53,646 bases of DNA from Candidatus Falkowiibacteriota bacterium (GTDB lineage Bacteria; Patescibacteriota; Patescibacteriia; Patescibacteriales; UBA12465). A model generated the notes under the pieces. That model had not been told where the DNA came from. It saw only the letters and a program-made list of their open reading frames with translations, and did no database searches. Position 1 is the stretch's first letter; the number at the start of each line of letters is the position of its first letter. The stretch spans positions 1 through 53,646 of the forward strand of contig VFKX01000093.1 of the NCBI GenBank assembly GCA_009885285.1. Direction: 5' to 3'. The position numbers and the translations under genes are program-made. Of this stretch, positions 11,730-50,854 are shown piece by piece.

Positions 11730-13253
11730 ATGTCAACTACAAAGGATTTCATCGTCGATCAACTGAAAGCGGAAATATCCGGATTCAAAGCTGAGGTGAG
11801 CGAAAAATCAGTCGGAAAAGTTTTGAAGGTTTCCGACGGTATTGCTCTCGTCTCCGGTTTGGCTGAAGCGATGATGAGCGAAATTTTAATCTTTAAGACT
11901 GAAACCGTTGAAGTTACCGGCGTGGCTTTGAATCTCGAAGAAAACCAGGTTGGCGCTATCATTCTCGGAGACTACACCGCCATTAAGGAAGGTGACGAGG
12001 TTATTGCTACTAAGAGAATTTTGGAAGTTCCGGTCGGTGAAAATATGATTGGCCGCGTGGTTAATCCATTGGGCGAACCGATGGACGGCAAGGGTAAGAT
12101 TGAAACAACTAAATTCTATCCGGTAGAAAAAATCGCTCCGGGCGTTATTACTCGCGCTCCTGTCAAAGAGCCTGTTCAAACCGGTGTTAAGGCTATTGAC
12201 GCCATGATTCCGATTGGTCGTGGCCAGAGAGAACTTATTATTGGTGACCGCCAATTAGGGAAGACCGCTTTAGCAGTTGATACCATTATCAATCAGAAAG
12301 GCCAGAACATGAAATGTATTTATGTGGCTATCGGTCAGAAGGAATCCAAGGTGGCCAATATTGTTACTAAACTAACTGAGGCTGGCGCTATGGCTTACAC
12401 TACGGTCGTTTTAGCTGGCGCTTCCACTCCTGCTTCTTTGCTGTATATTGCTCCTTATGCCGGTTGCGCCATGGCTGAGTACTTCTGCGATAAGGGTGAG
12501 GATGTTTTGATTATTTATGATGATTTATCTAAACATGCTGTTTCTTACCGTGAAATTTCCTTATTGCTCCGTCGCCCACCGGGTCGTGAAGCTTATCCTG
12601 GCGATGTCTTCTATCTCCATTCCCGTTTATTGGAACGTGCTTGCAAATTAAACAAGGATTTTGGCGGCGGTTCTATTACCGCTTTACCAATCATTGAAAC
12701 CCAAGCTGGAGACTTATCCGCCTATATTCCGACTAACGTTATTTCCATTACCGATGGTCAGATTTTCTTGGAACCAGACTTATTCTATAAAGGCAATCGT
12801 CCGGCTGTTAACGCCGGCTTGTCAGTTTCCCGCGTCGGCTCTTCCGCTCAGATTAAGGCTATGAAGAAAGTAGCTGGTAAGATGCGTTTAGAAGCGGCTC
12901 AATACCGCGAACTGGCCGCTTTTGCCCAGTTCGGCTCTGACCTTGATTCTGAAACCCAGAAGAAGCTGGAGAGAGGCAAACGTTTGTATGAAGTCTTCAA
13001 GCAAGATCAGTACCAGCCATTATCAGTTGCTAAGCAGGTTGTTTGCTACTACGCTTTGATTAACGGCTTCATGGATAATGTTCCGGTAGAGAAGATTCGT
13101 GAATTTGAAGCTGGCTTATATAAATACGCTGATTTAAATGATGCGGCTCTGAAGTTGATCGACACTGTTAAAGAAATCAATGAAGAAGTTGAGAAGGGAA
13201 TTAAGAAATTGATTGAAGATTATAAGGCGACTGTTGACTATCTTATAAAATAA
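11730..13253 (+). CDS. atpA: ATP synthase F1 subunit alpha
   Basis: [36 protein letters not shown]. Confidence 0.98.
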
Positions 13254-13259
13254 GTAACG

Positions 13260-13361
13260 GATTGAAACATATTTTGGAGCGCAAATGATTTCGTAAAGGA
13301 AAAATTAATAAAATTATTTTTTTCCACAGAAATCATCTAAGCGATAAAATATGGTTCAATC
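13260..13361. repeat. Large imperfect inverted repeat (33-nt arms, 36-nt loop) between atpA and atpG
   Basis: Arm 1 GATTGAAACATATTTTGGAGCGCAAATGATTTC (13260-13292); arm 2 GAAATCATCTAAGCGATAAAATATGGTTCAATC (13329-13361). Ends pair 15/16 and 8/8; loop contains GGAAAAA...TTTTTCC. Confidence 0.85.
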
Positions 13362-13367
13362 AATAAT

Positions 13368-15697
<2,330 letters not shown>

Positions 15698-47283: not shown

Positions 47284-47913
47284 TTAAATGATGATGGTAA
47301 TATCGTAGGAGTATTTTTTTCTGTATTCGTCAATCCAGGTTAATATTGCTTTTAATAATTTAGTGTCAGGATAATTGATAGTGATGGTGCCATATTTTGA
47401 TTTATTTCTATAGGTGCCCTTTTTCCCCTCTTGAAGGAATGATTTGTAAAAGTTGCAGAGTGGTATACCAGTGGTTCTTGTCCAGAACTTAATTAGCTTG
47501 GCTTCGTTATGATCTGGGTAAATATGAATTAGGGCTTTTAATCGACTCTCGTCTACACCGCAGATTACTCGCAAAAAATCCAGAAACAACCTAATCATGG
47601 CCGGGTCGCTATTAGTGAATTTAACAACGTTCATTGTTTTAGCGCCCTCGCCCCAATACAGCATGATTCCGGCAGTCTTTAAATTAGCATCCGTGTCAGT
47701 TATTATGGTCTTTAATTGAAACGGCTTCTTATTCTGCTTGATGGCATACCAGTAGTTAATAGCCTCTGAACGTGACCTTCTGGGCGTACCTGATTTGTCC
47801 AGATGGTATCTAATTGTTGAAACTGACAGCTTTAGCTTCGACGCTATTTGAGCCATCGACATTTTCTTGCTTAAATACATGTCAGGAATTGTTTTTGCGA
47901 TATTTTTGTTCAT
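47284..47913 (-). CDS. HTH + LAGLIDADG-like (homing-endonuclease-related) protein
   Basis: N-terminal HTH (MSMAQIASKLKLSVSTIRYHLDKSGTPRRS) then AGIMLYWGEGAKTMNVVKFTNSDPAMIRLFLDFLRVICGV...WTRTTGIP. Confidence 0.65.
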   Translation of the reverse strand: MNKNIAKTIPDMYLSKKMSMAQIASKLKLSVSTIRYHLDKSGTPRRSRSEAINYWYAIKQNKKPFQLKTIITDTDANLKTAGIMLYWGEGAKTMNVVKFTNSDPAMIRLFLDFLRVICGVDESRLKALIHIYPDHNEAKLIKFWTRTTGIPLCNFYKSFLQEGKKGTYRNKSKYGTITINYPDTKLLKAILTWIDEYRKKYSYDITIII

Positions 47914-47916
47914 ATA

Positions 47917-47931
47917 GTGCTATTATAGCAC
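47917..47931 (-). promoter_or_regulatory. Palindrome GTGCTATAATAGCAC containing an extended -10 (TGCTATAAT)
   Basis: Perfect 7-1-7 palindrome; -10 lies 8 nt upstream of the ATG at 47913. Confidence 0.65.
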
Positions 47932-47976
47932 AACTATGGTTATGAGATAAATAGATATACTATAGAACAATATATA

Positions 47977-48009
47977 TAAAAAAATCGCCTAGGTAATACC
48001 CAAGCGATT
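47977..48009 (-). terminator. tRNA-Thr terminator
   Basis: Minus strand AATCGC...GCGATTTTTTT. Confidence 0.85.
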
Positions 48010-48017
48010 CTTCTGGG

Positions 48018-48090
48018 AGCCGACTGTCGGACTTGAACCGACGACCTGATGCTTACAAGGCAACTGCTCTACCAGCTGAGCTAAGTCGGC
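48018..48090 (-). tRNA. tRNA-Thr (anticodon UGU), CCA not encoded
   Basis: GCCGACTTAGCTCAGCTGGTAGAGCAGTTGCCTTGTAAGCATCAGGTCGTCGGTTCAAGTCCGACAGTCGGCT; cloverleaf with a U28-U42 mismatch. Confidence 0.95.
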
Positions 48091-48173
48091 TTAACTGACT
48101 TCATTAATATAAAAGATTTTAATAATTTTAGCAAGGGGTAATAAAAAAGGAGCCTGGCTGTAATGGATAATAT

Positions 48174-48197
48174 ACAAAAAAACAGGTAAAAACCTGT
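48174..48197 (-). terminator. tRNA-Lys terminator
   Basis: Minus strand ACAGGT-tttt-ACCTGTTTTTTTG. Confidence 0.85.
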
Positions 48198-48205
48198 CTT
48201 TTCTG

Positions 48206-48278
48206 TGCGCCCAGCTGGATTCGAACCAGCGACCATCAGCTTAAAAGGCTGTTGCTCTACCAACTGAGCTATAGGCGC
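48206..48278 (-). tRNA. tRNA-Lys (anticodon UUU), CCA not encoded
   Basis: GCGCCTATAGCTCAGTTGGTAGAGCAACAGCCTTTTAAGCTGATGGTCGCTGGTTCGAATCCAGCTGGGCGCA; A27-A43 mismatch. Confidence 0.95.
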
Positions 48279-48428: not shown

Positions 48429-48749
48429 TTACATGCCGCAAGAATAACTGACTGTTTCATTAGACTTAATGACGACGTTGGCGGTGCTGCAGCCTGTGCC
48501 GTCGTTGCCCACTAATTCCCAGACATATACCCCTGGACAGAGCTTGATGTCCTTCTTTTCGCCAGGTGTAAGCGTTCCTTTGTTTTCGCCGTTGACAATA
48601 ATCTGCTGGGTAACGCTTCTCGTACTAGTGTTGGTCAGGCTAAGCGTTCCTTGAACGCAGGGGTTAATCTTTTCCTTTTCGCAACCATTACTGAAAATGG
48701 TTAAGGCAATGATAGTTGTTAATACGAGTAAAATCTTAAATTTATTCAT
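48429..48749 (-). CDS. Small lipoprotein, paralog A
   Basis: Signal peptide with lipobox IFSNGC; shares its whole mature domain pattern with 50411-50740. Confidence 0.75.
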   Translation of the reverse strand: MNKFKILLVLTTIIALTIFSNGCEKEKINPCVQGTLSLTNTSTRSVTQQIIVNGENKGTLTPGEKKDIKLCPGVYVWELVGNDGTGCSTANVVIKSNETVSYSCGM

Positions 48750-50410: not shown

Positions 50411-50740
50411 TTACTTACCGCTACAAGAATAGCCTTGATCTTCGCAAGCCACGATATTTACCTTAGCAGCACTGCAGCCAGTACCACCACTTAAACCAAC
50501 TAATTGCCAGTCATAAGTGCCGGGAGTGAGTTCGATTGATTTTTTATTGCCGGGATCCAGCGATCCATAGTTCACGCCATTGATCATGATACGCTGGACA
50601 GTGGTCAAGCTTTTATTTGTCAGAGTGAGCGTACCTTTTCCAGTACAAGGGCTGGCATCCAGTTTATCGCATGACAAATTAATGGACAGGGCAGCTATAA
50701 ATATGGCTGCCATTAGCAAAGCAAAATTAATTTTTTTCAT
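50411..50740 (-). CDS. Small lipoprotein, paralog B
   Basis: Start at MKKINFALLMAAIF (the listed ORF extends to 50797); lipobox INLSC; homologous to paralog A. Confidence 0.75.
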   Translation of the reverse strand: MKKINFALLMAAIFIAALSINLSCDKLDASPCTGKGTLTLTNKSLTTVQRIMINGVNYGSLDPGNKKSIELTPGTYDWQLVGLSGGTGCSAAKVNIVACEDQGYSCSGK

Positions 50741-50854
50741 CGCTACGTCTTTTAAATTAATACTTGAGTTTTTAACTAACTGCCTAAACGCTACCATATC
50801 TAAGTATAATTGTAAATAGGGAATGACTGGATGCGCCGAGTAGCTCTTTTAGTT

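Follow-up and report, generated by a model that had tools for sequence, protein, structure and literature searches.

The imperfect palindrome that lies between atpA and atpG in this Falkowbacteria genome probably represents a non-autonomous MITE/REP-like element found dispersed in this order of Patescibacteria; this copy would have been inserted into a gap that originally measured 0–3 nt and would have no dedicated role for atpG. It belongs to a multicopy family with covarying stems and conserved loops, with intergenic insertion in either orientation and with site-specific outer stems on shared cores. The family, a set of structured, dispersed palindromes in Patescibacteria, appears to be undescribed; its description was not found in the open-access literature, and searches of Rfam and of plasmid, phage and viral collections together with viral contigs gave no matches to it. 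The preliminary description of the window (the whole stretch of DNA analysed, 53,646 nt) had offered a MITE-like insertion as one of two alternatives, and this was found to be right in kind, as the element occurs in several dispersed copies between genes, and most relatives lack it at the orthologous gap.

The whole element, as delimited by fold and arm analysis, occupies positions 13260-13361 on the forward strand, its sense being set by the conserved loops and coinciding here with the direction of atpA and atpG; the refined covariance model (R3) scored it at 87.7 bits on the + strand versus 31.3 on the − strand. The atpA gene (F1 alpha; Pfam PF00006/PF00306/PF02874; 11730-13253, +) ends 6 nt before it, and atpG (F1 gamma; Pfam PF00231; 13368-14297, +) begins 6 nt 3' of it. 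The best matches of atpG assign the host to Ca. Falkowbacteria. The two arms (13260-13292 and 13329-13361) are 33 nt each, 79% complementary and separated by 36 nt. Read on the + strand from the outside inward, the outer stem consists of a 5' arm (GATTGAAACATATTTT, 13260-13275), of which the inner 8 nt are semi-conserved across the family and the outer part is site-specific, and a 3' arm (AAAATATGGTTCAATC, 13346-13361). It is followed by the conserved internal loop 1, defined by the family alignment A4 (GGAGCGCAA, 13276-13284, on the 5' side and CTAAGCGAT, 13337-13345, on the 3' side), by a middle stem that covaries in the family (ATGATTTC, 13285-13292, and GAAATCAT, 13329-13336), by the conserved internal loop 2, likewise taken from the family alignment (GTAAA, 13293-13297, and ACA, 13326-13328), and by a tip stem that is variable and covarying in the family (GGAAAAA, 13298-13304, and TTTTTCC, 13319-13325). 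The coordinates and anatomy given in the preliminary description, with 15/16 basal pairs, 8/8 middle pairs, a 9-nt/9-nt internal loop and GGAAAAA/TTTTTCC within the 36-nt loop, were all recovered, and the palindrome does fill most of the 114-bp gap (13254-13367), stopping short of the atpG ATG at 13368. RNA folding, proposed there as a check, gave −32.6 kcal/mol versus −13.4 ± 3.0 in shuffled sequences (z = −6.4), with none of 200 shuffles as good. No intrinsic terminator (a G+C-rich stem followed by a T run) was detected within 13100-13500, and no Rfam model matched the palindrome above its gathering score, the best being microRNA-precursor models far under threshold.

When the palindrome was used as a query against its own genome, matches were obtained at three further sites; a pattern search confirmed four elements in all, and covariance model R2 found no copy beyond these. 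Of the other three, one directly precedes ruvA, one directly precedes a cvpA-like gene and one separates comF from a 414-aa ORF. The central motifs GCGCAWATGATTTC and CAGAAATCATYTAAGCG are common to all four, while the outer and tip stems are not shared, and one of the copies (G000b) has nearly full symmetry. In relatives, covariance-model searching found about 60 more copies, nearly all inside one Patescibacteria order. Model R2 matched 14 of 60 relatives, with up to 9 matches per Falkowbacteria genome. Of the 111 genomes of the order searched with model R3, 16 had copies, against at most one weak match in a sample of 379 others from the phylum. Copy numbers were 2–15 in most genomes, including 4 in the present one, 3 in the single-contig genome G003 and a maximum of 15 (R3).

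Every copy follows the same plan, namely a variable outer stem (median 24 bp), loop 1 (consensus GAGCGCMTRT/CCKAAGCG), a middle stem of 7–8 bp, loop 2 (consensus GTARAG/CCACAG) and a variable tip stem. The constants of the family are thus two asymmetric, conserved internal loops, whereas compensated variation affects the outer and tip stems and part of the middle stem. Covariation was assessed on 33 aligned copies and 29 pairs; 86.7% of the cells were paired, 22 of the 29 pairs had changed on both sides, and cells changed on both sides numbered 140 versus 51.5 ± 5.3 in shuffles. Shifting the partners by 1–3 columns abolished the signal. Pairing is therefore conserved across the family with strong covariation. 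According to the preliminary description, a chance structure would have neither conserved pairing in relatives nor other copies in the genome; both were found.

An unusual feature is that the sequence of the outer arms changes between sites with pairing retained. Up to a distance of about 26 nt from the core, pairing clearly exceeded that of mismatched-copy controls; farther out it was at control level. Pairs of copies with cores at least 88% identical mostly had near-chance arm identity, yet 75–100% pairing in the shell 8–16 nt out. The 71-bp cores of G013a and G013b differ at one position, whereas 8–24 nt out the arm identity of these copies is 0.38–0.5 and their pairing 0.83–1.0. In the orthologous copies G003b and G009a, with flanks 85–90% identical, the outer stem is kept and the middle and tip stems differ with compensation; in the orthologous G003a and G009c, the core is identical and the outer stem has changed with compensation. 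These contrasts indicate that core and outer stem evolve separately. The clearest empty site is that of G003c, filled in G003 and empty in G009, with flanks 74–84% identical. When aligned by eye, the outer half of the G003c 5' arm (GCGATTAA) matched the ancestral flank (ATGATTAA), the 3' arm (TTAAGCGC) being new sequence; on this alignment the site suggests that neighbouring target sequence may have been copied from a hairpin primer. It is conceivable, though doubtful, that the hairpin is mobile as a folded single strand and leaves behind an inverted copy of about 8–17 bp of neighbouring target with no direct duplication, so that each insertion would come to be closed by an outer stem newly formed for its site and perfectly paired. 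The ancestral arm is inconsistent, being the 5' arm in G003c and perhaps G013a and the 3' arm in G014c, and a rule by which the same arm is always ancestral was not established; because the weaker sites disagree in this way, the inverted-copy origin is not put forward as the main claim.

Copies are almost exclusively intergenic, often within about 30 nt of either neighbouring gene, and adjoin unrelated genes (ruvA, cvpA, comF and a tRNA) in both orientations. Between tandem genes, 20 were sense and 16 antisense, counts that are approximate as they rest on simple ORF calling, and at one shared site the G013 and G014 copies are oppositely oriented. Such placement of tandem-gene copies in either orientation argues against an atpG regulator or gene-specific leader RNA. 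All five full-length atpA-atpG copies are oriented as the genes, so that orientation at that junction is not visibly random. Mismatched pairs in the outer stems were counted as read on the element's strand, with a scoring that treats all mismatches equally, and G.T pairs outnumbered A.C pairs by 56 to 15 on the element's own strand (p = 1e-6), the second unusual feature of the family. Outside the semi-conserved inner 8–9 bp the bias was modest (20:8, p = 0.036), and the evidence is good but not conclusive, since those inner positions contribute about half of the G.T pairs and these are not independent. In a count limited to the first 45 copies, elements sense to the genes gave a ratio of 22:6 and antisense ones 23:6; were the structure one kept in the mRNA of the flanking genes, antisense copies should show the reverse ratio. 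The G.T excess suggests that the element's own strand folds single-stranded, as ssDNA or RNA.

The same observations bear on the possibility that a once-mobile element has become a set of domesticated, general intergenic hairpins, such as transcript stabilisers or RNase III sites, whose pairing is kept by selection on transcripts. The positions between tandem genes and the compensatory changes in the orthologous pairs G003a/G009c and G003b/G009a are in line with it, but copies stand in both orientations with a strand-specific G.T bias, presence is patchy, unrelated stems sit on near-identical cores, and cores are more alike inside a genome than across genomes (0 of 2000 permutations), as expected from recent spread or homogenisation. 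Domestication of this kind is therefore regarded as unlikely.

That the element is an insertion follows from the empty gaps, mostly of 0–3 nt, and from its patchy occupancy on the gene tree. The survey of the atpA-atpG gap took in the 36 genomes of the family in which atpG had been matched, and in 35 the gap was readable. In 29 of these the gene order is kept with no element; most of their gaps measure 0–3 nt, and some longer gaps are also without it. The six filled gaps, each with an unrelated outer stem, hold the element or a variant in G000, G002, G018, G021 and G033 and a miniature version in G012, and gaps with the full element measure 114–205 nt. On a tree of atpA and atpG the six filled genomes require at least five changes on well-supported branches, with G000, G018 and G021 each having an empty sister. 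This distribution calls for numerous gains or else numerous precise losses, and gains are favoured because the outer stems are unrelated. Orthologous sites of several other copies were also empty in relatives; the boundaries of empty sites are imprecise, as the relatives are at most about 86% identical, and G064 and G054/G063 have diverged too far for precise empty-site comparison.

Upstream of the full element, the gaps of G033 (L166) and G002 (L147) contain what seems to be the truncated 5' half of another copy (TTTTTTAGCGAATTGGTT... and TTTTAGAGCGACTC..., respectively), suggesting that the site has been hit by insertion repeatedly. In another Falkowbacterium (L066), an unrelated palindromic repeat (GTTCATAAAGTT...) was observed inside a 92-nt atpA-atpG gap, which indicates that this gap accepts different hairpins.

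The empty sites favour insertion after divergence from close relatives, and this speaks against neutral upkeep, in which old palindromic repeats without current mobility would be maintained by template-switch correction of quasi-palindromes and by gene conversion of cores. Upkeep of this kind could account for outer stems that are near-perfect though unrelated in sequence, for the near-full symmetry to which G000b would have been corrected and for the similarity of cores within genomes, but the internal loops are still asymmetric in nearly all copies and correction predicts no excess of G.T over A.C on one strand; it is thus considered quite improbable. Least probable is the other alternative of the preliminary description, in which a cis-acting RNA structure of the atp mRNA would adjust atpG relative to atpA, for although the fold is strong and covarying, the stop and the start are each 6 nt away from the element and the five full-length copies at this junction are sense, most relatives with the same gene order lack the element where a cis-regulatory atpG leader should be conserved, and the family adjoins unrelated genes, also in antisense, with an equal G.T excess in antisense copies. 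A dedicated role of the palindrome as an ATP-synthase switch is accordingly very unlikely, although in this particular genome the insertion may affect the expression of atpG locally.

If the palindrome is a mobile element of the MITE/REP-like kind, one strand would fold into a long hairpin, either as single-stranded DNA or as an RNA copy, and a putative host or borrowed enzyme would recognise the folded strand through the two conserved internal loops and move the core. The outer stem would then form, or form anew, at every site, possibly by inverted copying of the adjoining target sequence.

Among the candidates tested, no transposase or recombinase was found to track the elements. The Y1 transposase (PF01797) is absent from the element-bearing genomes G003, G007, G009, G013, G014 and G015, the distribution of the IS66 transposase does not follow that of the elements, and reverse transcriptases are absent from the element-bearing G003, G009 and G014. 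Many relatives (L309-L317) have reverse transcriptases that by eye resemble those of diversity-generating retroelements, some of them adjoining a frame for a small helical protein and a possible variable protein; the loci read around reverse transcriptases held no element. No copy carrying a gene inside was seen, and no target-site duplication was found for the Falkowbacteria copies, the best direct repeat reaching 6.70 of 8 positions versus 6.59 in the control. In G044, a genome of another family (L245-L263), some 20 copies of a related core were found within repeats of roughly 190 bp whose ends (GTAACTGCTCACTAT) are constant and which are flanked by 8-bp direct target duplications (on average 6.1 of 8 positions matching, versus 2.9 when shuffled). 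These repeats are ordinary MITEs carrying a related core; their ends (GTAAC...) we take to resemble those of the IS66 family, and the genome has one IS66-type transposase match.

Compared with known systems, the element shares features with several. A REP normally occurs in more than 100 copies per genome and is linked to a rayt gene (PMC2817692). Like REP/BIME sequences with RAYT, the elements are short imperfect palindromes, dispersed, intergenic and apparently recognised as a folded single strand; unlike them, they measure about 100–120 bp, occur in 2–15 copies in most genomes without high copy number or BIME arrangement, and have no correlated cognate Y1 (IS200/IS605-like) gene. With MITEs they have in common that they are small, gene-less, palindromic and multicopy, with sites empty in relatives, but the ends of MITEs are constant terminal inverted repeats flanked by direct repeats, whereas the Falkowbacteria ends are site-specific, with unrelated outer arms on near-identical cores. 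Integron attC sites, which act as one folded strand, are long and imperfectly palindromic; they have conserved boxes, bases left unpaired and a variable tip. The present elements have a similar build, but their variable part takes in the outermost stem, no cassette arrays were seen, most copies standing singly between genes, and no end boxes of the attC type (RYYYAAC/GTTRRRY) were seen by eye. ERIC, RUP and Correia-type repeats are intergenic palindromes of about 100–150 bp without genes and with conserved ends; the elements described here are likewise intergenic and gene-less, but differ in host phyla and sequence, and their ends are not conserved. The family is best filed as an apparently undescribed REP/MITE-like variant. 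At the site corresponding to G064c, G063 (L361, C35) has a different palindrome, starting with TCATTGCGAGGAGCG and ending with GCTCGCAATGA, which presumably resembles a repeat occurring in many bacteria.

Patescibacteria genomes are compact, often with few bases between genes, and a dispersed hairpin family in such genomes is of note. The case also cautions that a hairpin between operon genes should not be called a regulator before further copies and empty sites have been checked. If it were true that the site-specific stems arise by inverted copying of target DNA, this would be a new outcome of insertion.

Elsewhere in the window, a 209-aa ORF on the minus strand (47284-48278) with a helix-turn-helix-like start lies beside two tRNA genes and, judged by eye, possibly encodes a LAGLIDADG-type endonuclease. 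Two small secreted-looking proteins, also on the minus strand (48429-48749 and 50411-50797), are similar to each other (CVQGTLSLTN and CTGKGTLTLTN), a resemblance that likely reflects a duplication.
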